Virus record (IMG/VR): IMGVR_UViG_3300047409_000364
Coordinates: 1 to 64,000 of that record
Reading direction: 5' to 3' (one strand)
DNA: 64,000 nt
Source of the DNA: a virus
The position numbers and the translations under genes are program-made. Under the pieces are notes generated by a model. The model was given only the letters and a program-made list of their open reading frames with translations. It was not told the DNA's origin and searched no databases. Below are positions 4,113 through 63,889 of this stretch, piece by piece. Within the stretch, counting starts at the first letter, position 1. Each line of letters begins with the position of its first letter.

Positions 4113-4726
4113 TGGTTGCGTCCCTGAGTTCGCCCGCCGACGTCGTCAACGATGCCCTCCGGCGCATTGGCTACAAGCTCCGCGTCGGGCGGCTGGATGA
4201 TGGCTCTGACGCCTCCAACACCGCGCTCGACATCTACGGCCAGACCCGTGACACCCTGCTGCGTGACGGCGATTGGCACTTCGCCCAGCGCGAGGTGAAC
4301 GGCACGCTCCTGAAGTCGGCGCCGGCGGACTACTTCCCGCCCAACGCCTGGGACGCGACCACGATGCCGCCCATGCCCTGGCGATTCAGCTACACCTACC
4401 CAAGTGACTGCCTGAAGGTGCGCTCGGTGCGGCCGCAGCCCATGTTCGCCGTCGACATGACGCCGACGCCGACCCTGTTTGCCGACGTGAACGACAACGG
4501 CTACACGACGCCCGTGCGAGTGATCGTGGCAAATATTCCCACGCCGGTGATCGTCTACACCGGCCGCGTCACCGATCCCGCGATGTGGCAGGTGGATTTC
4601 ACCGAGGCGATGTGTGCCGCCCTGGCCCGCCGCCTGGCACCGCAACTGGCCAGCATGCAAGCGGTGCCGCTCGAGGCCCAGGATGAGGCCGGCGCCTTGC
4701 GCTCTGCTGGCAGGGAGCAGGGCTGA
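4112..4726 (+). CDS. gp11-like tail tubular / head-tail adaptor protein, copy 2
   Basis: 204 aa; ATG overlaps the stop of copy 1. The N-terminus has SPADVVNDALRRIGYKLRVG, then TRDTLLRDGDWHFAQREV, FSYTYPSDCLKVRSV and VDFTEAMCAALARRLAPQLA, the standard order for podophage adaptor proteins. It is the most canonical of the three paralogues: the helix pair, the YPxDC strand and the C-terminal helical pair are all present. Probably one ring or one layer of the portal-nozzle connector. Confidence 0.8.
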   Translation: MVASLSSPADVVNDALRRIGYKLRVGRLDDGSDASNTALDIYGQTRDTLLRDGDWHFAQREVNGTLLKSAPADYFPPNAWDATTMPPMPWRFSYTYPSDCLKVRSVRPQPMFAVDMTPTPTLFADVNDNGYTTPVRVIVANIPTPVIVYTGRVTDPAMWQVDFTEAMCAALARRLAPQLASMQAVPLEAQDEAGALRSAGREQG

Positions 4727-5640
4727 TGGCCGACTACTATTCGCCAGAGATGATTTCCAACCTTGCGCTCCGTGCGGCGGGGGTGGATTTCAGCATCGGC
4801 AGCATGCAGGAGGGCACCAAGCCCGCCCAGGAATGTCTCCTGCACTACTACGACACGATGAAGCAGCTTCTCCGGGCAGCGCACTGGTCGTTCGCCAGGA
4901 AGGACGCCCCGCTGCAGCTCGTGGCGGCGGCCGGCGGGATCGCCACCGACCAGAACGGCAACACCATCAGCGTCAATCCGCTGGTGCCGTCGGGCTTCCT
5001 CTATTCCTACAACTATCCGACCGACTGCCTGCTGGTGCGCTACATCCCGGCCAACTACTGGAACGTCAACCCGCCGATCCCAAGCGGCAACATCGTACCC
5101 AGCGACAACACCGCTCCGCTGACGACCGCGACCATGATCCCGGCGGGCAGTAGCCGTCCCGTGCCGAGCCGCTTCCTGATCACCAACGATCCCAACTACG
5201 TGCCCGAGGGAGCCTCCAACGACACGCCCGGTATCAGCCCGATCGGCCAGACACTCATTCTCAGCAACGTCCAGAATGCCCGGTCGGTCTACACGTTTGA
5301 GGCGTCCTGGGTAAACCTTTGGGATGACCTGTTTCGCAACGCCATGGTGGCGTCCTTGGCAGCGCAACTGGCCTTGCCGCTGGCGACCGACAAGAAGTTC
5401 GGCATGACCATGCGCAAGGACAACATCGCGATCGCCATGGACCGCATCAAGACGGCGCGGGCTTCGTCGGCAAACGAGGGCATCTCCTCCAGCGACCTGT
5501 CCGTCGACTGGATGCGGGCTCGCAACACCGGCTCGCCCATGGGCTACTGGGGCGGTGGCGCCGGGTGGGGTGGCGGCGGGCCGGGCTACCTCTACGGTGG
5601 CTTTGGACAGATGTGGTTCGAAAATTCGAGTTCATATTGA
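4726..5640 (+). CDS. gp11-like adaptor protein, copy 3, with glycine-rich tail
   Basis: 304 aa; TGATG overlap with copy 2. It shares the helix (EMISNLALRAAGV), DTMKQLLRAAHWSFARKD, YSYNYPTDCLLVRY and a C-terminal helical region with the two upstream paralogues. It is about 100 residues longer and ends in a Gly/Trp/Tyr-rich tail (YWGGGAGWGGGGPGYLYGG). The last 9 bases overlap the antisense homing endonuclease gene, and the final codons (GAA AAT TCG AGT TCA TAT) are AT-rich compared with the rest of the gene. The C-terminus may therefore have been altered when the endonuclease gene arrived. Confidence 0.75.
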   Translation: MADYYSPEMISNLALRAAGVDFSIGSMQEGTKPAQECLLHYYDTMKQLLRAAHWSFARKDAPLQLVAAAGGIATDQNGNTISVNPLVPSGFLYSYNYPTDCLLVRYIPANYWNVNPPIPSGNIVPSDNTAPLTTATMIPAGSSRPVPSRFLITNDPNYVPEGASNDTPGISPIGQTLILSNVQNARSVYTFEASWVNLWDDLFRNAMVASLAAQLALPLATDKKFGMTMRKDNIAIAMDRIKTARASSANEGISSSDLSVDWMRARNTGSPMGYWGGGAGWGGGGPGYLYGGFGQMWFENSSSY

Positions 5641-6500: not shown

Positions 6501-9500
6501 GTGAGTGCGCCCTTCACTAAAGCCACCTTCACCGTTGGCGAATTGTCTCCGTCTATGTACGGCAGAGTTGATTTGGCCAGGTACAGTGCCGCCGCGTCCA
6601 CGGCACGAAATTGTTTCATCCGGTACGCTGGCGGGCTCTCCTCGCGGGCGGGCTCGCTGTTCGTTGGTTACTCCAAGCAGACCGGGCGGGCCTATCCTCC
6701 GCGGCTGCTGACCTTCCAGTTCAACCTCAATCAGGGTCTCTGTCTGGAGTTCGGCAACTTCTACATGCGGGTGATCCAGAACGGCGCCTTCGTGGTCGAT
6801 CGCACGCTGAGCATCGTTGGGATCACCCAGGCTAACCCGGCCGTGATCACCGTGGGCCCGACCTCGGGCGGCAACACGGTGACAGCCATCAATACGGCGG
6901 TCGTGCGCTCCTACGAGCCCGGCGAGCATGTCACCCTGGCCGGCGGCACTTTCTCGAGCCCTGCGGTGGTGGCAGTGACCAACACGCTCCTGCTGGCCCT
7001 GGAAGTAAATGACGGGGGCACCGGGGTCTATGACATCGCAGACACGATCTCTCTCACGGGAGGATCCCAGACGACGCCAGCCCAGCTTACCGTCACGCAT
7101 ACCCAGGTGACAGGGGCGTCGATCGCCAACGCGGGCGCGGGCGGAACGGACGGCGCGCAGGTTGTGACGGGGACGACCGGCACGGGCACAAAGTTCACGG
7201 CTAACGTCACGATTGCTGGCGGCCTTATTACCTCGGTCGATTCCATTGCCACGGGCGGCGACTACACGGTCAATCCGACGGCGCCGGCGGCGGAGCCTGT
7301 AACGGGCGCGGGAGCGGGAGCCCAACTGGATCTCAGCATTGGCGTGCTTGCCTTCACGATCACCAATCCCGGCGTGTTCACGTCCAACGGGCCGGGCACC
7401 TTCACCCAGAACACGACCTCTGGCTCCGGCCTGGCGGCGACCTTCAAGAACGCAATCTTCGGCATCAACGCCGCCACCTTCAGCGATCCCGGCGTCTATA
7501 CGGTATTCCCGACCAATCCCGTCGCCCAGGACACCACTGACGGCATGGGGCTGGGCGCCACTTTCACCTGCACCAGCGCGACGGTGGGGGCGATGGATAC
7601 CGGCGACTGGATCGAAATCAGCGGCGTCGGCGGCATGACCGAGCTGAACGGCGGCACGTTCGTGGTGACCAAGCTCAGTTCCACGACCTATTCCCTGGCC
7701 GACGTGTTTGGCAACAACATCGACAGCACGGCCTACACGGCGTTCACCTCGGGCGGCATTGCCGAGCGCATCTACACCCTCGAGACGATCTACGACGAGG
7801 TCGACCTGGCCTTCCTGAAGATCACCCAGTCGGCCGACGTCATGTCGATCTGCCTGGTCAATCAGGACACCAACGTCGAATACATCCCGCAGGATCTCGC
7901 GCGCACGACCAACAGCGACTGGACGTTTGAGCCGGTGGTGACGACGGCGACGGTCGACGCGCCCACGGATCTCACGGGCGTGGCGAGCAGCAGCGGCTCG
8001 ACCAACTATCAGTACGTCGTTACCTCGGTCGACCCCAAGAACGGCACCGAAAGCATCGCCTCAAACATCGCCAGCATTTCGAGTGCAGTAAACATCGCCG
8101 CCACAGCGGGCTCGATTCAGTTGAGCTGGACTCCGGTCGATGGAGTCAGTCAGTACAACGTCTACAAGGCCAACCCTGTTTTCGATTTCGCCATCCCGGC
8201 GGGCGTGGAATTTGGCTTTGCCGGCACGGCGTTTGGCACGCAGTTCGTCGACAGCAACATCGTCGCCGACTCCTCGCAGGTGCCGCCCAAGCACCAGAAC
8301 CCGTTTGCTCGCGGCCAGATCATCGGGGCATCGCCGTCGATGACCGGCTCGGGCTACACGACCGCCACCGTCGCCATCACCACCTCGACGGGGTCGGGTG
8401 CGATCATCCGCGCGATCGTCCAGAGCGGCGGCATAGCGGCCTACATCGTCGACAATCCGGGCGAGGATTACGCCACGACCGACACGGCAGCCGTTTCGGG
8501 CGACGGCACAGGGGCGACGTTGATCCTCAATGTCGGACCTGAGACCGGCACCTATCCGGCCGTGCCGACCTACTTCCAGGAGCGCCGCGGCTACGGTTTT
8601 ACGCTCAACCAGCCCGACACCTACTTCTTCTCCCAGCCGGGCTCGTTCAAGGACTTCGATACCCGCATCCCGACCCTGGCCAGCGACGCCATCACTGGCA
8701 ACCCGTGGGCGGTGCAGGTGAACGGCATCCAGGCCATGCTCAACCGGCCGGGCGGCCTGGTGGTGTTCACTGGCCGCGAGGCATGGCAACTCACCGGCAC
8801 CGGCGGCTCGAGCCTCAATCCCCAGCCCATCACGCCCTCGACCCAGCAGGCCCAACCGCAGGCCTTCAACGGCTGCCACAGCCACGTCCCGCCCGTCGGC
8901 ATCGACAACGAGATCCTGTACGTCCAGGCCAAGGGCTCGATCGTCCGCGACCTGTCCTACAACTACTTCGCCAACGTCTATACCGGCTCGGACCTGACGC
9001 TGAATTCCTCGCACCTGTTCACCGGCTATCAGATCCAGGAATGGGGCTGGGCGGAGGAACCGTTCAAGATCCTGCCGGCGGTGCGCGACGACGGTACGGC
9101 GCTCTGCCTGACCTTCGTGAAGCCGCAGGAGGTGGCGGGTTGGACGCGCTGGGATACCAACGGCAGCTTCGTGTCGACGACAGTGGTGACCGAAGTGCCG
9201 GTCGACGCCGTCTATCTCGCCACCCAGCGGCAGCCGGTCCAGGGCAGTGCCTACATGATCGAGCGGATGGACAACCGCATCTGGAACTCGGCCGAGGAGG
9301 CGTGGTGCGTCGACTGCGGTTTGCGACTGGGCCAGCCGGAGCCGGCCGCCACCCTCAATGTCAGCTCGGCCACCGGCGCCGGAACCATCCCCTCTATAAC
9401 CGTCACCAGCGGCGGCACGGGCTACGGCAGCGCCACGACGGCGACGGTGGTGGACGATGACGGCGAGGGCCCGGGGAGCGGCTGTACGGTCGCCCTGACG

Positions 9501-10421
9501 ATCGTGGCAGGGGTGATCACCGCGGCCACCCCGACGGGGGGAACCGGTTACACCTACCCCCAGATCGTGGTCTACGACCCGTCGAACAGCGGCAGCGGGG
9601 CAGTCCTGACGGCCGCCCTGCTCAATAGCGCGACCGCCGTGGCGACCGGGGGCACGCCCTTCACCTCGGGCAACGTGGGCGACGTGATCCGCTCGGGCGG
9701 CGGCATAATGACCATCACCGCCTTCAACAGCACGACCAACGTCACGGTCAACATCACCTCGCCGATCGTGGCGATCACGGTCGACGCCGCGGGTAACCGC
9801 CGGCCGCTGCCGCAGACCTCGGGCAACTGGACGATGACGACCCCGGTCACCGAGGTCTCCGAGCTGATGCACCTGGCGGGCCTGACCGTCACCGGCACCT
9901 ACGACGGCAAGGCCATCCCACCTACGGTCGTACCACCCTCCGGCGTGATCACCCTGCCGGCCGCCGCCAGCGCAGTGACCGTGGGTCTGGGCTTCGTAAT
10001 GCAGGCCCAGAGCCCCTACTTCAGCGTGCAGGGTCAGTCGGTCGAGGGCCATCGCAAGAAGGTGGCCGACGTGGTCGTGCGGGTCGAGGCGTCGCTTGGC
10101 TTCACCGTCGGCACCAACCAGCCGGACGGGTCGACCTTCTCGCCGATCCAGATCGCTCCGGTGTGGGAGGACATGCAGCCCGTGGAGAAGGCGACGGCGA
10201 GTTTCAACCGCGCGCCCTACGGCTCCGACGTCGAGCCGCTATGGACAGGCGATTCGAAATTCATCCCGGTCATGTCGGGCTTCGGCGTGCCCGGTCAGGT
10301 TTGTGTCCAGCAGGCATTGCCGTTTCCACTCAACCTGCTTGCGTTCATCCCCGACATTCTTCCCGGTGATGTCCCCCAAGTACAAGAGCCCAAGAGCGCC
10401 CGGAGTGGCCAAAATCAATAG
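6501..10421 (+). CDS. gp12-like tail nozzle protein
   Basis: 1306 aa from GTG 6501 (GGAGGGC upstream). The N-terminus (FTVGELSPSMYGRVDLARY, then NCFIRYAGGLSSRAGSLFVG) is the hallmark of podophage nozzle/tail tubular B proteins. Several inserted Gly/Thr-rich beta repeats follow (about residues 100-330 and 610-680), then a conserved C-terminal half. The T7 protein is about 794 aa, so this one is enlarged by repeat insertions. It forms the tip of the short tail below the adaptors. The first 45 or so codons use rare AT-rich codons (TCT, AGA, TTG, AGG, AGT), unlike the rest; this segment abuts the GIY-YIG gene. Confidence 0.85.
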   Translation: MSAPFTKATFTVGELSPSMYGRVDLARYSAAASTARNCFIRYAGGLSSRAGSLFVGYSKQTGRAYPPRLLTFQFNLNQGLCLEFGNFYMRVIQNGAFVVDRTLSIVGITQANPAVITVGPTSGGNTVTAINTAVVRSYEPGEHVTLAGGTFSSPAVVAVTNTLLLALEVNDGGTGVYDIADTISLTGGSQTTPAQLTVTHTQVTGASIANAGAGGTDGAQVVTGTTGTGTKFTANVTIAGGLITSVDSIATGGDYTVNPTAPAAEPVTGAGAGAQLDLSIGVLAFTITNPGVFTSNGPGTFTQNTTSGSGLAATFKNAIFGINAATFSDPGVYTVFPTNPVAQDTTDGMGLGATFTCTSATVGAMDTGDWIEISGVGGMTELNGGTFVVTKLSSTTYSLADVFGNNIDSTAYTAFTSGGIAERIYTLETIYDEVDLAFLKITQSADVMSICLVNQDTNVEYIPQDLARTTNSDWTFEPVVTTATVDAPTDLTGVASSSGSTNYQYVVTSVDPKNGTESIASNIASISSAVNIAATAGSIQLSWTPVDGVSQYNVYKANPVFDFAIPAGVEFGFAGTAFGTQFVDSNIVADSSQVPPKHQNPFARGQIIGASPSMTGSGYTTATVAITTSTGSGAIIRAIVQSGGIAAYIVDNPGEDYATTDTAAVSGDGTGATLILNVGPETGTYPAVPTYFQERRGYGFTLNQPDTYFFSQPGSFKDFDTRIPTLASDAITGNPWAVQVNGIQAMLNRPGGLVVFTGREAWQLTGTGGSSLNPQPITPSTQQAQPQAFNGCHSHVPPVGIDNEILYVQAKGSIVRDLSYNYFANVYTGSDLTLNSSHLFTGYQIQEWGWAEEPFKILPAVRDDGTALCLTFVKPQEVAGWTRWDTNGSFVSTTVVTEVPVDAVYLATQRQPVQGSAYMIERMDNRIWNSAEEAWCVDCGLRLGQPEPAATLNVSSATGAGTIPSITVTSGGTGYGSATTATVVDDDGEGPGSGCTVALTIVAGVITAATPTGGTGYTYPQIVVYDPSNSGSGAVLTAALLNSATAVATGGTPFTSGNVGDVIRSGGGIMTITAFNSTTNVTVNITSPIVAITVDAAGNRRPLPQTSGNWTMTTPVTEVSELMHLAGLTVTGTYDGKAIPPTVVPPSGVITLPAAASAVTVGLGFVMQAQSPYFSVQGQSVEGHRKKVADVVVRVEASLGFTVGTNQPDGSTFSPIQIAPVWEDMQPVEKATASFNRAPYGSDVEPLWTGDSKFIPVMSGFGVPGQVCVQQALPFPLNLLAFIPDILPGDVPQVQEPKSARSGQNQ

Positions 10422-10499: not shown

Positions 10500-11003
10500 A
10501 TGGCTGGCACCAAACGTACTACGCCCGAACGGCTGCGTGAATTGATGGATTACAATCCAGACACCGGAGAGTTTACGTGGTTAAGGGGACGCGCCCGCAC
10601 CGCGCGGGGAACCGTCGCTGGGCATAGGTGCCCCGACGGCTATATTTCCATCAAGATAGATCGTGAGCCGAATTTGGCGCACCGTCTGGCGTGGCTCTAT
10701 ATGACGGGAGAGTGGCCGTCGAACGACCTAGATCATAGAGATCTAAATCGCTCCAATAATGCTTGGAGCAATTTGCGCTTGGCGTCGCCTAGCTTGAATC
10801 AGGCAAACACGACCAAACGTGAGCGCAATACGACTGGCTATAAGGGCGTCGTGTATTGGCCAAAGAGAGGCAAGTGGTCCTCGTCTATTATGGTGCGGGG
10901 AAAACGAATGTTTCTCGGAATGTTTGATAGCGCCGCTGAGGCGCACTGGCATTATTCCGAGATGGCCAAAGAGCACTTTGGTGAATTCGCGAGGCTCCAT
11001 TGA
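10500..11003 (+). CDS. HNH homing endonuclease with AP2 domain (copy 1)
   Basis: 167 aa with an AGGAGC site before ATG. The N-terminus RLRELMDYNPDTGEFTWL is typical of the family. The HNH core is AHRLAWLYMTGEW...DLDHRDLNRSNNAWSNLR (about residues 60-95). Residues 112-160 are an AP2-like DNA-binding domain (GYKGVVYWPKRGKWSSSI, then FLGMFDSAAEAHWHY). It ends in GEFARLH, shared with two other HNH proteins here. It sits between the nozzle and GNAT-fold genes; the GNAT TTG start lies inside its stop region. It is a mobile nuclease, AT-richer than its neighbours. Confidence 0.9.
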   Translation: MAGTKRTTPERLRELMDYNPDTGEFTWLRGRARTARGTVAGHRCPDGYISIKIDREPNLAHRLAWLYMTGEWPSNDLDHRDLNRSNNAWSNLRLASPSLNQANTTKRERNTTGYKGVVYWPKRGKWSSSIMVRGKRMFLGMFDSAAEAHWHYSEMAKEHFGEFARLH

Positions 11004-11539
11004 GCCGCGTCCAAGTTGTTCCCGGCAAATTGCATCATTGTGGTCGCATGGCGCGCGCTCTGCGCTACGAACACTATGCGGCGATGACGCGGGTCGGTGT
11101 CGATGCTCACCGCTCGATCCGGGCGAACTTCGAGGCGTCGTATTTCTCCGAAGCTGTACTGATCGACGGCGAGCTTGCGGCGCTCGGCGGGGCTATCGGG
11201 TCCAGGCTGTCCCCGTTCGCCTTCGTGTGGGCGGTTCTGGCGGAGAAGGCCGCGCGCTATCCGAAGGAAATCGTGAAACAGGGACGCCGTGCGCTTGCCG
11301 AGCTGATGAACGACAAGGTCGAGCTCGTGACCACGGTCGACGTCGGCGATGAGGCGGCGCTGCGCTTCGCGGCCTTCTTGGGGTTCTACACCGAGGAATT
11401 CGGCGAGGGTCAGGCGGCCTTCAGCCACCATGGTCGGCGCCGGCTGGTGCGTTACGTCAAGACCTCGCCCGACCTCCGTGTTCCGCACGGCCACAGCCAT
11501 GTCGTGCGCCTGGGCTATCATCCGATGGAGCTGAGCTGA
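11000..11539 (+). CDS. GNAT-fold internal virion protein (T7 gp13-like position)
   Basis: 179 aa; TTG 11000 overlaps the HNH stop (TTGA). The sequence GKLHHCGRMARALR...IRANFEASYFSEAVLIDGEL...TTVDVGDEAALRFAAFLGF has the layout of the acetyltransferase-like internal virion proteins found between nozzle and gp14 genes in podophages. Residues 150-179 contain a His-rich strand (VPHGHSHVVRLGYHP). Probably structural rather than enzymatic. The first 20-25 codons are AT-rich and atypical, next to the HNH insertion. The TTG start probably exists because the insertion re-created the 5' end. Confidence 0.7.
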   Translation: MSRVQVVPGKLHHCGRMARALRYEHYAAMTRVGVDAHRSIRANFEASYFSEAVLIDGELAALGGAIGSRLSPFAFVWAVLAEKAARYPKEIVKQGRRALAELMNDKVELVTTVDVGDEAALRFAAFLGFYTEEFGEGQAAFSHHGRRRLVRYVKTSPDLRVPHGHSHVVRLGYHPMELS

Positions 11540-12045
11540 TGCCGCTGAAATTTAAGGCGCCTCCGTCGCTGGACCTTCTGCGGGCGCGGCTTTCGTATGA
11601 TGCCGAAACGGGCGTCTTCACTTGGCGCAAGAAACCAGGGCGCAGCATGGTCGAAGGAGCCGTCGCTGGGTGTCTCAATCACTACGGATACACGGTCATT
11701 GGCGTAGAAGGAGAATTGTACTACGCCCATCGTTTGGCATGGCTCTGGATGACCGGGGAATGGCCCGCCGACCAGATCGACCACCGCAACGGGGTGAGGG
11801 GCGATAATCGCTGGGAAAATCTGCGGCAAGCAACCAATCAACTCAATCAGGCGAACAGAAAGCGCAACGCCGGCGCTTTTATGAAAGGTATCACCAAGTA
11901 CAAGCCCAACGGAAAATGGCAGGCTCAGATCTCCGTTGAGGGCAAACATATAAGCCTAGGCTATTTTAGATGCCCCGCAGCCGCGCATCTGGCTTACGTG
12001 GTGGCCGCAAACGAAGCCTTTGGCGAATTTGCGAGGAGCGCTTAG
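11539..12045 (+). CDS. HNH homing endonuclease with AP2 domain (copy 2)
   Basis: 168 aa; TGATG overlap with the GNAT gene. It has the same architecture as the HNH gene at 10500: LRARLSYDAETGVFTW, HNH core AHRLAWLWMTGEWPADQIDH...NRWENLRQAT, AP2-like GITKYKPNGKWQAQISVEGK...SLGYF, and C-terminus GEFARSA. It separates the gp13-like and gp14-like genes. The downstream gene starts 3 bases after its stop, and its first 50 codons look synonymously recoded. Homing nuclease. Confidence 0.9.
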   Translation: MPLKFKAPPSLDLLRARLSYDAETGVFTWRKKPGRSMVEGAVAGCLNHYGYTVIGVEGELYYAHRLAWLWMTGEWPADQIDHRNGVRGDNRWENLRQATNQLNQANRKRNAGAFMKGITKYKPNGKWQAQISVEGKHISLGYFRCPAAAHLAYVVAANEAFGEFARSA

Positions 12046-28247: not shown

Positions 28248-29051
28248 TCACGCTATCTGCGCCTCCTTGGCGCGCTCCAGCCGAACGCGGACTTCGCTGA
28301 TGTCGAGAGCGTCGGCCTGTTTCCCAATGGCAAAGGCTTCTTCGGCTATGGCGATGCAGTCAGCATAGATCGCGGCACTCGCGTCCCACGCGGCACTCGC
28401 GTCCCACGCGGCACTCGCGTCCCACGCGGCACTCGCGGCCCACGCGGCCCTCGCGGCCCTCGCGGCCCTCGCGGCACTCGCGGCCCTCGCGGCACTCGCG
28501 TCCCACGCGGCACTCGCGTCCCACGCGGCACTCGCGGCCCACGCGGCCCTCGCGGCCCTCGCGGCCCTCGCGGCACTCGCGGCCCTCGCGGCACTCGCGG
28601 CCCTCGCGGCACTCGCGGCCCTCGCGGCACTCGCGGCTACTTGGCCGCATTCATCGAATGTACCCACCGCCTGACAGAGCGCGGCCTGTTCTGGAAGATT
28701 GGCCGCCCGCATGGCCGACGAGACGTGCCGCTGCACGGTCCGCAGCACGATCAATTCAAGGCGCTGCTGTTCGATGGCGGGCGTATCAGCCGAACCCGAC
28801 AAGCGCAGCACGAACGGCATGAGCTTTTGCCGCCAGTCGTCGGGCATCAGGTCGTTGATGCCGATCAGGTAGGCCGACAGCACGGGCGAGAAACATGGCG
28901 GGCAGTCGGTGGCCGACCCGACCTTCTTGTATTCAAAGCCAGCCGCGATGATGGCCGCCTCGTTGATGCACGTTCCGCCATCGGGGCCGGGGAAATCGTG
29001 GCTGCCGACGAGCAGCCGCCACTTAATGATCTTTGTCCAGTCGTATGCCAT
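28248..29051 (-). CDS. Protein with long alanine-rich tripeptide repeat
   Basis: 267 aa. The N-terminal 140 residues look globular ([25 protein letters not shown]-type turn; [28 protein letters not shown]). Residues 140-228 are a repeat of three-residue units AAS, AAR, AAW and DAS, predicted to be one long helix with Arg or Trp at regular spacing. A normal charged helix follows ([18 protein letters not shown]). The repeat corresponds to a 9-bp DNA repeat and may vary in number between isolates. GAGG precedes the ATG. Alanine-rich repeats of this kind occur in other phage and plasmid hypothetical proteins; role unknown. Confidence 0.65.
28371..28636. repeat. 9-bp tandem repeat array inside the Ala-rich gene
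   Basis: About 29 units of GCGGCACTC / GCGTCCCAC / GCGGCCCTC / GCGGCCCAC in tandem, always in phase with codons. A higher-order pattern (a GCGTCCCAC-rich stretch followed by a GCGGCCCTC-rich stretch) is present about twice, suggesting an internal duplication of roughly 120 bp. Prone to slippage. Confidence 0.9.
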
Positions 29052-58846: not shown

Positions 58847-59407
58847 TTGGCTATCAATGACGCACTACTCGCGTTCGTGCCGTACAACGCGCCTCTGTCG
58901 CTGGTTGGCGGCGCGGGCGTCGATTTCGCGACCGACCCCTACGACATCCTGGGTGCGGGTGCGGGCACGCTCGTGACCAACATCTGGGGCAACTCGACCC
59001 TGCCGGGTCAGGCTGACGGTCTCTCCGTCGGCATGCCGCAGCCCTACATCTCGGTGCTGATCGGCACCGCGCTGGTGGCCAACACCGGCACGCCGCTCTT
59101 GAACGTCCAGTTCCAAGGCGCCCCGGACAACGGCTCGGGCTCGCCCGGCACCTACCTGACTTACGCCCAGACCGGCGACATCACCGTCGCACAGGGCACC
59201 GCCGGCACCGAGATCTGCCGGCTGCCGTTCGTGCCGCCGTTCCCGCTTAACCACCGGCCACGCTTTCTGCGGCTGAACTTCGCGATTGCGGCGGCGACTG
59301 ACTACAGCGCCGGCACCATCTCCTCGGCCTATGTCGTCGGCACGCGCGACGACCAGTACCAGTTCCAGGCCGCGAAGAACTACACCTCGCCCCGCTACAC
59401 CGGGTAA
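58847..59407 (+). CDS. Capsid cement/decoration protein (Bbp16-like)
   Basis: 186 aa from TTG 58847 with AAGGAG upstream. VDFATDPYDILGAGAGTLVT, GMPQPYISVLIGTALVANTG, TPLLNVQFQGAPDNGSGSPG, LPFVPPFPLNHRPRFLRLNF, GTISSAYVVGTRDDQYQF. The order and position right after the capsid gene match the Bbp16-type cement proteins of podophages. Probably trimeric on the capsid surface. Confidence 0.7.
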   Translation: MAINDALLAFVPYNAPLSLVGGAGVDFATDPYDILGAGAGTLVTNIWGNSTLPGQADGLSVGMPQPYISVLIGTALVANTGTPLLNVQFQGAPDNGSGSPGTYLTYAQTGDITVAQGTAGTEICRLPFVPPFPLNHRPRFLRLNFAIAAATDYSAGTISSAYVVGTRDDQYQFQAAKNYTSPRYTG

Positions 59408-59416
59408 GGGTGAACC

Positions 59417-60187
59417 ATGGCACGCAAGTCCAAGGCCCAGATCGAGGCCGAAACGCTCGCCCGGCAGGAGGAGCTTAACCAGGCGTCCGAGAAGCGGGCG
59501 ATGGATATGTTCTCCGGCTTCATGGCGAAGTTCATGGAGCAGATCGGCCAGGCGCGTGTTGCAACCGGCGGCGAGGCGCCTGCCTCCGCCGCCGAGGGCG
59601 ACCGCAAGCTGGCGGATCAACTCGCGCACGCCATGATGACGGCGTCGGCTACGCCATCGAAGCGGGCCGCGCTGATTGCACCGGAGGAACGCGCCGCTCG
59701 CGATGCCGCCCGCCAGCAAATGATCGACATCATCGTCGCCAACAACGCCAAGGGGCTCGTGCCGATCTACCGCGTCACGCGCAAGACGTTCCTGGCCGAG
59801 ACGATGGTCGACCCGCAGTTCCGCGATCCGCAGAGCAAGCAAATGGTCGACCAGGAGATCAACTATCGTGGCATCCCCAACCAGGCGATGACCCCGATCA
59901 CGCGACCGCCCAACACCGAAAGCGAAGAGGCGCGGTTCGCCGCCGGCAAGCTGGTCTACGATATGTACCTGCGGTCGATCGGCAACCAGCCGGTGATCAA
60001 CGCCAACATGCCTTCGCAGTGGGTGACCAGCGGCAAGGAATTGCTGCGCGGCAATCCCGCGCCGGCCCCGTCCCCGCTGGCCCAGATTGCGCCCGGTGAC
60101 GATCCGCGCCGCCTCGGCCCGCAGCAGGGTGCTACCACTGTCCGCCTGCTCGGCAAGACCGCAGAGCCGGCGGTGATCACGCCGTAA
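59417..60187 (+). CDS. Structural-module protein of unknown function
   Basis: 256 aa. A helical start (RKSKAQIEAETLARQEELNQ) and a middle with IIVANNAKGLVPIYRVTRKT, FLAETMVDPQFRDP, QEINYRGIPNQAMTPITRPP, then a Pro-rich tail. Likely virion or assembly protein by position between cement and tail genes. Family not named. Confidence 0.6.
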   Translation: MARKSKAQIEAETLARQEELNQASEKRAMDMFSGFMAKFMEQIGQARVATGGEAPASAAEGDRKLADQLAHAMMTASATPSKRAALIAPEERAARDAARQQMIDIIVANNAKGLVPIYRVTRKTFLAETMVDPQFRDPQSKQMVDQEINYRGIPNQAMTPITRPPNTESEEARFAAGKLVYDMYLRSIGNQPVINANMPSQWVTSGKELLRGNPAPAPSPLAQIAPGDDPRRLGPQQGATTVRLLGKTAEPAVITP

Positions 60188-60197
60188 GGAGTACCCC

Positions 60198-61064
60198 GTG
60201 GGCGTTAATGCAGCTAGCGACGTATCGGCGTCGGGCGTTTCGCCTTATGCGCCCCACGACTGGGCCAACAGCGTCCTCTCCGGCACCTTCAGCGACGAGC
60301 AGGTGTCGGCGCCGCTGGCCATCTATGGCTGGTTCAATGTGTCGATCTGGGCGAGCTATTCGAGCTCGCTGGCAACCACGGCGAATTCGCTCAGCGCCAC
60401 CATCGGCACGGCGGGCTCGATCGCCAAGGGCAACAGCATCTACTCGACCAACACGCCGGCTGGCGCGACCATCCAGGGCGTGTCGGGCACGACGCTGACG
60501 CTCTACCTGCCGCCGGTCACCATCCGCGGCCGCGCGGTTGTTGGCAGCACTCACATCACGGGGCTCAACTCGACCGATGGCCTGACCGGAGCCGCCATCA
60601 CCGGCCTCGGAGTCCCGGCGTCTACCACGGTGTCGTCGATCGTCACGGCCGCCGTGGCGGCCACCGCCAACTCGCCCGGCGTGAAGGGCGAGATCATCAT
60701 CTCCAATCAGATCACGGCGACGACGGCTGACAGTTCCGACACGCCCTTCGTGTTTGTGCGCGACGGTCACGGCATTACCGCCAGCGCGACTGACAGCGCC
60801 GCGGTGTACGTCGGCAACGAACTCACCTTCAGCGGCACTATCCAACTCGAGCGCAGCTTCGATGGCGGCCACACTTGGATCCCTTGCTTCGCCTGGTGGG
60901 GCGGCAGCCAGCTCAAATGGACGACCGAGATGTCGACCGTCCTGATGGAGCCCGAGAAGGGGGTTTTGTATAGATTGAATTGTGTAGCGTACACCAGTGG
61001 GACGATGAATTATCGCATCAGCACCACCGGGCAGGCCGCTACTACCTTGAATGTTCCCCTATAG
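60198..61064 (+). CDS. Beta-rich tail/virion protein with recoded 3' end
   Basis: 288 aa from GTG 60198. Ser/Thr/Ala-rich beta sequence; FSGTIQLERSFDGGHTWIPC is a conserved phage tail/decoration motif ('G.v.leRsfDgg.tW'). It ends GQAATTLNVPL. From about 60958 to 61064 the codons turn AT-rich. A GC-rich second copy of the last 12 codons lies beyond the HNH gene at 61668-61703. The stop shares palindrome CTATAG with the convergent HNH stop. Confidence 0.7.
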   Translation: MGVNAASDVSASGVSPYAPHDWANSVLSGTFSDEQVSAPLAIYGWFNVSIWASYSSSLATTANSLSATIGTAGSIAKGNSIYSTNTPAGATIQGVSGTTLTLYLPPVTIRGRAVVGSTHITGLNSTDGLTGAAITGLGVPASTTVSSIVTAAVAATANSPGVKGEIIISNQITATTADSSDTPFVFVRDGHGITASATDSAAVYVGNELTFSGTIQLERSFDGGHTWIPCFAWWGGSQLKWTTEMSTVLMEPEKGVLYRLNCVAYTSGTMNYRISTTGQAATTLNVPL

Positions 61065-61583
61065 CAGGCGAGCGAATTCACCATGAAGTTCCTTCGCCCT
61101 CTTACAATACGCATCGTAGGCCCCCTGCGGGGTCGCGAAGTATCCGAGCGAATAGCTGACGTTCTGGAAGCGGATCTCAGCGCGCCAGCGCCCTGTCGGT
61201 TTGAAATAGAAGACTCCCTTGTATCCGCTCTTGTTGAGCCTTGTGCGCGTTCTGTTGCATCGGTTTTGAGAGACCGTGGCCAGTCGAAGATTGGCCCAGC
61301 GGTTGTCGCCTCGAATCATGTTGATGTGGTCGACTTGGCTCGCGGGCCATGTGCCGGTCATCCAGAACCACGCCAGCCGATGGCAGCGAACCAACATACG
61401 GCCCACTCTAATTTGGGAATATCCGCTTGGAGCCAGCGTGCCCGCCGGTTTGCCGGCATAGCGCAAGTTCCATCCCGCCCAGTTGGATGGGCGAGCGAGC
61501 CAAGTGAACACGCCAGTTTCGGGATTGTAGTGAAGCATCTTCTTGATGCTGTCGTGATCAAGGGACAGACTTTTCTTAGCCAT
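61059..61583 (-). CDS. HNH homing endonuclease with AP2 domain (copy 3)
   Basis: 174 aa, antisense. IKKMLHYNPETGVFTWLARP, CHRLAWFWMTGTWPASQVDH (HNH), NRWANLRLATVSQNRCNRTR, AP2-like SGYKGVFYFKPTGRWRAEIR...SLGYF, C-terminus GEFARLL. It is a close relative of the HNH proteins at 10500 and 11539. Its leader shares the GAGGCG...CCGCCTCTAACC hairpin (61647-61611 on this strand) with the 10500 gene. The insertion duplicated the 3' end of the adjacent + strand gene. Confidence 0.9.
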   Translation of the reverse strand: MAKKSLSLDHDSIKKMLHYNPETGVFTWLARPSNWAGWNLRYAGKPAGTLAPSGYSQIRVGRMLVRCHRLAWFWMTGTWPASQVDHINMIRGDNRWANLRLATVSQNRCNRTRTRLNKSGYKGVFYFKPTGRWRAEIRFQNVSYSLGYFATPQGAYDAYCKRAKELHGEFARLL

Positions 61584-61610
61584 TCGGAGATCGCCTTCTT
61601 CGATAGGTTA

Positions 61611-61647
61611 GAGGCGGTCGCCGCGTTGATAGCGCCGCGATCGCCTC
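61611..61647 (-). promoter_or_regulatory. Hairpin leader of HNH gene 3
   Basis: Inverted repeat GAGGCG (61611-61616)/CGCCTC (61642-61647), followed on the minus strand by TAACC and about 27 bases to the ATG. Equivalent to the leader at 10438-10472. Confidence 0.45.
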
Positions 61648-61667
61648 GCGCATCTTACTTCATTACT

Positions 61668-61703
61668 GGCCACGCGGCCACGACCCTCAACGTGCCCCTA
61701 TAG
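61668..61703 (+). pseudogene. Residual original 3' end of the gene at 60198
   Basis: 36 bases reading GHAATTLNVPL-stop, GC-rich like the genome. The functional gene ends GQAATTLNVPL-stop with different codons at nearly every wobble position (for example ACG versus ACT, CTC versus TTG, AAC versus AAT, GTG versus GTT). The remnant keeps the ribosome-binding site (TAGGAGC) of the next gene in place. Confidence 0.8.
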
Positions 61704-61713
61704 GAGCGCATCA

Positions 61714-62721
61714 ATGACCACTCCCTTCGTTCCCGGCGCTGTTATGGTCGATCCGCTCGACGGCACCGAGGAGCTTTCAATCTTCACCGTGGGGCCGACG
61801 TCGGCCAAGACCACGACCCAGGCCATTGCCGACCTCGCCGTAGGAAGCGAGAACGTGCAGACCGGCATTACCGCCCATTCGACCGGCGGCCAGACCAGCG
61901 CATGGCAACTGACCAATGGCATCAACAACGTCACCACCGTGGCGGCGGCCAATGACAGCGTTAAGCTGCCCAGCGCCACCGTCGGCAATGTGGTGACGGT
62001 GATGAACAACGGCGCCAATGCCATGCAGGTGTTCGGCACTTCACCCGACACCATCAACAGTATCGCCACGGCGACCGGCGTCTCGCAGCTTTCCAAGACG
62101 GTCGAAACCTACACCTGCGTGGTGGCGGGCAACTGGATCCGCGACCAGGTCGTGCAGGCGTTCTCGACGATCACCGCGACGAACCCGCCGACCCAACGCA
62201 ACTACTACGGCGCGGTCACGCTCAATTTCCAAGGCACCGTCACGATCGCCAGTGGCAACGGCTCGGTGGCGGGCGGCCGCGGCGAGGTTATTGGCGCCAC
62301 CGGAACCACGCTGAGCGACGGCTTCTACTATGGTCTGCAGGGCAAGTTCACGCTCGGTGGCGCGACCATCTCCGAGGTCTCGGCCTCGCGCTATGTCGGC
62401 GTCATCGCCCAGTTGGATCTCTCCTCGGGCACCATGACCTCCGGCCAGGTGTCGGCTTTGTGGGCCGACATGGGGGCCACAGCGGCGGGTGCGTTCGCCG
62501 CCGAGACCAACATCGTGCGCGCGACCAACACGACCGCCTCGACCGTCAACGCCATCCTCTACGGCTACGGCAAGGCGACCTACGTCATGGATCTGTCGGC
62601 CAATGGCGGCACTAACCTCTCGACCACGGGCACGGCGGGTGCCACGGCAACCAAGGGCTGGCTGAAATGCTTTGTCGCCGGCGTCGTCCGCTACATCCCG
62701 CTCACCGACTCGGTGTCCTGA
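61714..62721 (+). CDS. Tail fibre-like structural protein
   Basis: 335 aa with TAGGAGCG upstream. N-terminal VDPLDGTEELSIFTVGPTSA, then TTVAAANDSVKLPSATVGNV, VTVMNNGANAMQVFGTSPDT, TYTCVVAGNWI, a module I recognise from phage tail-tip proteins. The C-terminal part is Gly/Thr/Ala-rich beta (ATKGWLKCFVAGVVRYIPL), the usual end of fibre proteins. Likely surface-exposed. Confidence 0.65.
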   Translation: MTTPFVPGAVMVDPLDGTEELSIFTVGPTSAKTTTQAIADLAVGSENVQTGITAHSTGGQTSAWQLTNGINNVTTVAAANDSVKLPSATVGNVVTVMNNGANAMQVFGTSPDTINSIATATGVSQLSKTVETYTCVVAGNWIRDQVVQAFSTITATNPPTQRNYYGAVTLNFQGTVTIASGNGSVAGGRGEVIGATGTTLSDGFYYGLQGKFTLGGATISEVSASRYVGVIAQLDLSSGTMTSGQVSALWADMGATAAGAFAAETNIVRATNTTASTVNAILYGYGKATYVMDLSANGGTNLSTTGTAGATATKGWLKCFVAGVVRYIPLTDSVS

Positions 62722-62915
62722 TGGATCGCGAAGCTCTCGAAAAGCGCATCGCCGACCTCGAGAAGGGGTCGCAGAGCCTCGCCGAGATGATCGAAAAGCT
62801 GGGCCGCGACCTCACCGCCACGCGCGGCGCGCTCGATGAAAACCGGCGCTGGCTCGCCACGCTCGAGCCGGTAGAGACCAACGTCTTTCCTCTCCCGCAA
62901 GGAGCAGCATCGTGA
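62721..62915 (+). CDS. Small coiled-coil protein
   Basis: 64 aa (TGATG overlap). DREALEKRIADLEKGSQSLA, EMIEKLGRDLTATRGALDEN form a coiled coil, with RRWLATLEPV after it. Between tail genes; overlaps the next GTG start by 4 bases. Possibly an assembly chaperone or minor tail part. Confidence 0.6.
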   Translation: MDREALEKRIADLEKGSQSLAEMIEKLGRDLTATRGALDENRRWLATLEPVETNVFPLPQGAAS

Positions 62916-63397
62916 AGAAACTCATCGCAATCGTCGCCGGTCTCGGCGTTCTCTTGGGCGGGGTAGTCTTCGCCCAGACCCCGATCCCCTACGTGACGTC
63001 TCTCGGACAGAGCGACATCATGCAGGCGATCAAGAATGCCAATCCCCAAGCCGGCAATACCTATGCGACCCTGACGCAGCTCCGGGCCTGGTTGCTCGGG
63101 GGCGCCAGCGGACACTCCGCTACGCCCAGCCTCGGGGCAACCTGTGGCACGGCACCGGCGATCGTCGGTTCCGACTTCGCCGGCCGGGTGACGGCTGGGA
63201 CCGGCACCCCGACCTCGTGTGTGGTCACCTTTGCCTTGGCTTTCACGGCCGCGCCGGCCTGCGCCGTGGCTTCGGAGACCGCACCGGGCACGACGACGCC
63301 GCACTACACGATTTCCACGACCGCCATCACGATCACCCAGGCGGCCAACGATTCGACCATCTACGATTTCATCTGCATCGCCAAGAACGGCGGCTAG
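62912..63397 (+). CDS. Secreted tail-region protein, paralogue 1
   Basis: 161 aa from GTG 62912 (GTGA overlap). Signal peptide MKKLIAIVAGLGVLLGGVVF then [43 protein letters not shown], and a C-terminal beta domain (CVVTFALAFTAAPACAVASE) with paired Cys suited to a disulfide outside the cytoplasm. About 60% identical to the next gene. The C-terminal module resembles fibre-tip domains. Confidence 0.65.
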   Translation: MKKLIAIVAGLGVLLGGVVFAQTPIPYVTSLGQSDIMQAIKNANPQAGNTYATLTQLRAWLLGGASGHSATPSLGATCGTAPAIVGSDFAGRVTAGTGTPTSCVVTFALAFTAAPACAVASETAPGTTTPHYTISTTAITITQAANDSTIYDFICIAKNGG

Positions 63398-63406
63398 GAG
63401 CGCACC

Positions 63407-63889
63407 ATGAAGAAACTGATCTACGGCATTGCGGGCATTGTCGCCCTGGCGGCCGGCCTGGCGTTTGCCCAAACCCAGATCCCCTATGTGGCGTCGCTGG
63501 GCCAGGCCGACATCCAGCAAGTCATCAAGAATGCCAACCCGCAAGCGGGCAACACCTACGCCACGATCACCCAGCTTCGGGCGTGGATCCTGGGTGGCGC
63601 TTCGGGCCACTCGGCCGTGCCGACCATCGGTTCGTGCGGCGGCGGTACGCCGACCATCGTCGGTTCCGACTTCGGCTTCCGGGTTACCCAGGGCACCAGC
63701 GCCACGGGCTGCGTCGTGACGTTCGCGGCGGCCTTCGCCACCATCCCAACCTGCGTGGCAGTCAACGAGACAGCGCCCGGCACCTCAACGCCGGCCTACT
63801 CGGTGACGACTACTGCAATCACCCTGGTGACGGCGAGCACGTCCGGCGAGATATGGGACGTGGTCTGCGTCGCCCGTAACGGCGGCTAG
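63407..63889 (+). CDS. Secreted tail-region protein, paralogue 2
   Basis: 160 aa with AGGAGCG upstream. Signal peptide [20 protein letters not shown] then [83 protein letters not shown]. Tandem duplicate of the gene at 62912; Cys positions conserved. Followed by a TAGTG overlap with the gene that runs off the window. Confidence 0.65.

Follow-up and report, generated by a model that had tools for sequence, protein, structure and literature searches.

An HNH homing endonuclease gene in a phage genome, accompanied by a re-spelled 3′ end of the gene it invaded

Known endonuclease insertions and substitute gene ends

In fungal mitochondria, atp6 of Allomyces macrogynus and atp6, atp9, cox2, and nad3 of Glomus combine an endonuclease ORF with a diverged replacement C-terminus. 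Nearly all changes in these replacements are synonymous (e.g., 63.5% nucleotide identity and 91% amino acid identity), and the native end, left downstream, is the copy closest to insert-free relatives (PMC3630166). The locus described here lies in a window of 64 kb (the whole stretch of DNA that was analyzed) from a 65,587-base IMG/VR phage record, and it shares this layout: an in-frame replacement end precedes the nuclease gene, the native end lies beyond it, and the replacement is diverged mainly at synonymous sites (23/31; 91% amino acid identity to the insert-free relative L001). These fungal genes are the direct precedent. The fungal mORFs, however, encode LAGLIDADG or GIY-YIG proteins in an organelle, whereas the window has an antisense HNH gene in a double-stranded DNA phage. 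In the Glomus genes the endonuclease ORF is part of the host transcript (PMC3630166), and a mirrored 5′-end version, present in related phage loci, further separates the phage loci from the fungal mORFs.

The window locus resembles free-standing phage HNH homing endonucleases (PHROG 99; T4 Mob/Seg, Skunavirus HNHEs) in its HNH family and in its sporadic distribution beside conserved genes. For free-standing phage homing endonucleases, the donor allele is taken to have a different sequence at the cleavage site (PMC12724721; PMC2988022). Published accounts treat the free-standing HNHs as separate insertions and note that the target gene is polymorphic in sequence; a carried duplicate end plus a remnant was not found described, and no phage precedent for an HNH gene with a duplicated gene end was found in the open-access literature, subscription papers not being covered. 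ShiLan-type hidden HNH insertions in phage methylase genes also lie in a coding gene without an intron or intein (PMC11855218); in those genes the host-gene reading frame continues through the insert, whereas the window gene is completed by a substitute end. The synthetic home-and-rescue drive HomeR likewise pairs a cutter inserted in a gene with a recoded copy that rescues the same gene (PMC7968924). It is an engineered Cas9/guide RNA system in Drosophila, and the window cassette is related to it by functional analogy and not by descent. The design is already known from fungal mitochondria; the phage HNH nuclease, the antisense orientation, and the 5′-mirror form are the parts that differ from it.

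Structure of the invaded locus

The host gene (60198-61064, + strand) encodes a 288-aa virion-region protein that gave no Pfam or PHROG hit and whose C-terminus reads ...YRISTTGQAATTLNVPL before the stop. It is a hybrid of a native body and an imported AT-rich 3′ end of ~35 codons including the stop (60960-61064; start approximate), in which GC3 is 0.61 vs 0.86 in the body. Within this tail, 61029-61064 translates as GQAATTLNVPL-stop. The antisense gene that follows (61059-61583, - strand, 174 aa) encodes a homing endonuclease of the HNH_3 type with a possible AP2-like C-terminal DNA-binding domain. It matched PHROG 99 (E 4e-67) and PF13392 (HNH_3; 50 bits, cut-off 24.8), and its AP2 match (PF00847) of 30.6 bits was just below the cut-off of 33.3. 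Alignments showed that the conserved D-H and N residues are present; a PDB search with this protein gave no homologue. The palindrome CTATAG (61059-61064) is common to the host-gene stop on the + strand and the HNH stop on the - strand.

The HNH leader (61584-61650, - strand) has an AGAAGG ribosome-binding site at 61594-61599 and a hairpin at 61611-61647. The leader is conserved in L277, a second phage with an HNH gene at this site; the L277 hairpin (2283-2351, - strand) has the same shape, and its paired bases have changed together (UCGC/GCGA vs UUGG/CCAG). This hairpin could regulate the nuclease or mark the end of the cassette.

Beyond the leader, a GC-rich piece of the former host-gene 3′ end has survived as a remnant (61665-61703, + strand) that reads TGHAATTLNVPL and closes with a stop. 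Its left edge is uncertain (about 61655-61665); 61668-61703 translates as GHAATTLNVPL-stop. The remnant matches L001 5300-5338, and the match extends into the L001 downstream sequence. The remnant TAG overlaps the AGGAG ribosome-binding site (61702-61706, + strand) of the next gene, 7 nt before its ATG at 61714, and the site is arranged in the same way in L001. The next gene (61714-62721, + strand, 335 aa) is collinear with L001 5349-6356 and directly follows the host gene in that phage.

The L001 host protein (4472-5338) has 84% amino acid identity to that of the window. No HNH gene is present here in L001; the GC-rich gene end runs straight into ...CCCCTATAGGAGCGCAT and the next gene. The downstream copy in the window abuts the next gene in the same way as the L001 end and is therefore the original end. 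By blastn, window 58853-60961 corresponded to L001 3122-5235 and window 61665-63369 to L001 5300-6998. Homology thus stops at 60961 and restarts at 61665, indicating that 60962-61664 is foreign or replaced. L001 5236-5299, 64 bp of the original gene, has no counterpart in the window; the tail therefore replaced part of the host gene, and only ~39 bp of the original end survives.

The preliminary description had proposed that the HNH gene brought a recoded duplicate of its host gene's 3′ end, a proposal that would have failed if an insert-free relative carried AT-rich codons at the gene end or if the downstream copy belonged to a different gene. The L001 end has GC-rich codons and not AT-rich ones, and its single end is contiguous with the next gene, which excludes the second possibility. 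All coordinates given for the two peptides hold, as do the shared palindrome with both stops and the ribosome-binding site kept by the downstream copy. Two parts required revision. The re-spelling stands, but it spans ~35 codons by the blastn break vs L001, not 12; and the leftover copy is indeed the original, but the tail was not purely added, because 64 bp of the gene were lost.

Codon usage was compared with L001 over eight collinear genes (2026 codons). At conserved codons, synonymous change was found at 23/31 positions in the tail (60960-61064) and 533/1613 elsewhere (Fisher p=4e-6). Changes in the first two codon bases, of the types AGA/CGC, AGT/TCC, and TTG/CTC, were found at 7/31 positions in the tail and 15/1613 elsewhere (p=6e-8). 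The tail was the most extreme 35-codon stretch for synonymous change in the entire comparison, while its protein identity to L001 was 91%. When ten copy pairs were examined for re-spelling beyond random synonymous choice, none was significant (lowest P 0.066, window tail vs L001). Because copy divergence matches independent random codon choice, we do not claim selection for maximal difference.

Recurrence at the same gene and at other HNH loci

Relatives of the host gene were found at 67 loci in viral contigs, most of them without an HNH gene at the gene end. The HNH site is empty in L001 and occupied in the window, L277, and L331. In L277 the host gene has 47% amino acid identity to that of the window; its HNH protein is 45% identical and of the same length (174 aa), and its HNH gene is antisense and in the same place, with convergent stops overlapping as in the window. 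Of 25 tail codons, 13 were identical between L277 and the window, ranking L277 first among 55 relatives (mean 28%). The two tails have in common an exact 15-nt run, TATAGATTGAATTGT, which encodes YRLNC with codons seldom used in this genome (AGA is 3.5% of Arg codons and TTG 10.6% of Leu codons). No recognizable remnant was found in L277. Because L277 has a related HNH gene in the same place and the same unusual tail codons, the tail evidently belongs to the cassette. In L331, a third phage with the same host-gene family, the functional host-gene end TSFTSGTLAYRLSQ is followed by a distantly related antisense HNH gene and then by the remnant SAYTSGTVNYRLSQ, both ends being closed by a stop.

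HNH genes have reached this host-gene end more than once, as L017 also has one there, on the sense strand and immediately after the host gene (9374-9874, equivalent to L282 3894-4394). No remnant or duplication was found beside this HNH gene. The host-gene tail of L017/L282 carries an odd local insertion, TLVEVAPIIA.

HNH ORFs were surveyed in three viral-contig scans (200 distinct ORFs, 194 usable) for a peptide common to both flanks, with a threshold score of at least 60. Excluding the window locus, which itself scores 59, such duplications were found for 8/193 HNH ORFs vs 2/716 control ORFs (p=1e-4); both control hits resemble paralogous repeats, and most surveyed HNH loci have no duplication. 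The 3′ end is duplicated in L256, L066, and L103. In L256, 34 aa of the large terminase are duplicated and each copy ends with a stop; the target in L103 is presumably NinB-like. A host-gene scan for L066 gave two relatives, among them L268, which keeps the remnant-like residues RVHPRSI.

The mirror arrangement, with the 5′ end duplicated, was found in L037, L088, L221, L222, and L243, a tail fiber gene being among the targets. In L037, L221, and L222, the HNH protein starts with a remnant of the host-gene start, and the HNH gene is followed by the host gene in complete form, with a re-spelled start of its own. The remnant codons of L037 are closer than those of the functional copy to the insert-free Bradyrhizobium phage ppBeUSDA76-2. 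Because L221, L222, and L243 were hit in the same gene and their HNHs are related, they should not be counted as three fully independent events and may represent one lineage. All duplicated pairs had 55-74% nucleotide identity and no long exact tracts.

In HNH-positive Felixounavirus phages, the HNH gene lies right at the stop codon of the DNA polymerase gene, and no remnant is left. When HNH-positive JohannRWettstein was compared with HNH-negative finno, 17/38 synonymous changes were found in the last 40 codons vs 31/306 upstream (p=6e-7); for HNH-positive ASO1B the values were 14/37 in the tail vs 26/309 upstream. Tail differences were 2/39 between two HNH-negative phages and 4/38 between two HNH-positive phages. 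The HNH-positive polymerase genes thus have a re-spelled end of the kind seen in the window, but not the duplicate. The polymerases of HNH-positive CECAV_041 (L343) and FO1a (L345) are more broadly diverged, the 3′ half in protein as well, and the tail signal therefore cannot be isolated; this divergence suggests larger replacement tracts beside the HNH gene.

Origin of the re-spelled end

We interpret the locus as a mobile "home-and-rescue" cassette consisting of an HNH gene and a synonymously diverged 3′ end of the invaded gene (probability roughly 75%). The structural claim is strong: the architecture, the polarity (the remnant is original and the functional tail imported), the tail-HNH linkage across phages, and the recurrence were all observed. 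The mechanism is inferred. The nuclease would cut the uninvaded gene near a conserved 3′ coding motif (about GVLYRLNC..SGTINYRIS), and repair of the break would copy the donor cassette, so that the gene end is swapped for the re-spelled end plus the HNH gene. The protein would remain whole while the recognition sequence disappears, and the donor would be protected. Low DNA similarity between the two copies may prevent repair or recombination from losing the HNH gene. What is left of the old end, its final ~39 bp, would preserve the ribosome-binding site of the next gene. Cutting, site location, the benefit of re-spelling, and target destruction are all inferences, no cleavage or homing data being available. 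The lack of a remnant in L277, the L017/L282 HNH gene without a duplication, and the many surveyed HNH loci that also lack one count against the cassette reading.

The main competitor to the cassette is plain co-conversion, in which a free-standing HNH gene from a diverged phage brought along that phage's ordinary gene-end allele, the re-spelling having no function and never having been selected. This remains possible, although we lean against it. The copies differ about as random codon draws would, and with divergence at this level a diverged donor allele explains the re-spelling as well as selection does; the low GC of the tail fits an AT-richer donor, and Beaudet et al. 2013 prefer donor transfer for the fungal cases (PMC3630166). 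However, the protein encoded by the imported tail has 91% identity to that of L001 despite saturated synonymous sites, and HNH-bearing L277 is the only one of the 55 relatives that matches the tail codons well. Co-conversion alone also leaves unexplained the insertions inside ORFs and the presence of a complete in-frame end on the correct side (3′ or 5′). It is rather unlikely that re-spelling serves mainly to block recombination between gene-end copies (HNH deletion or short-circuited repair), with target immunity secondary. Such a role would fit the 55-74% identity and lack of long exact tracts in all duplicated pairs, and an insertion between the copies would already split a site; but the re-spelled zone of Felixounavirus exists although the insertion follows the stop and there is no second copy, so repeat avoidance is not the sole reason.

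The remaining explanations receive very little support. It is highly improbable that the two copies arose by ordinary tandem duplication or resemble each other by chance, independently of the HNH gene, or that the downstream copy derives from another gene, even though the repeat in the window is short (12 codons) and paralogous repeats occur elsewhere in such phages (the two controls). L001 led us to reject chance and an unrelated downstream gene, since it has a single end contiguous with the next gene and its blastn alignment to the window is interrupted just where the insert lies; duplications are also far more frequent at HNH genes than at control ORFs, and the linkage in L277 and L331 speaks against this reading as well. 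HNH genes frequently reside in introns, and a degenerate intron or intein whose splicing formerly restored the gene would account for an HNH gene here. We consider this practically untenable: the upstream ORF is intact and has a stop of its own, and the HNH gene is antisense and outside the host ORF. A group I intron or intein was rejected on these grounds, the HNH gene not being in frame, and an Rfam intron search of window 60000-62500 gave no hit at E<=1.

Whether phage HNH genes recurrently act as natural home-and-rescue drives, whose recoded gene end (3′ or 5′) has been favored by selection because it preserves the protein and abolishes the target site, is a question on which we are evenly divided. 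A homing gene that lacks an intron or intein would be expected to ruin whatever coding gene it enters, and the cassette shows a way out. If the interpretation is true, it would be a third route for a homing gene into coding sequence, besides introns and inteins. Because engineered drives share the design, phages would offer a natural, fast-evolving model of drive spread, persistence, and decay. The cassette model predicts nuclease sites inside re-spelled, protein-conserved gene ends, and it is open to testing in cultured Felixounavirus of E. coli K-12.

The window contains two more HNH_3/AP2 genes near each other in tandem (10500-11003 and 11539-12045, + strand), with an ORF at 11000-11539 that sits between them and overlaps both. 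Neither had a flanking gene-end duplication above noise. Downstream of the host locus, the genes at 62912-63397 and 63407-63889 are tandem paralogs with ~51% protein identity. In L001, a GIY-YIG-like gene, identified by eye, lies between two paralogous genes (7030-7767, + strand); the window has no such gene at the corresponding position (63397/63407). A short stretch of collagen-like PRG/GTR triplet repeats is present at 28365-28640.
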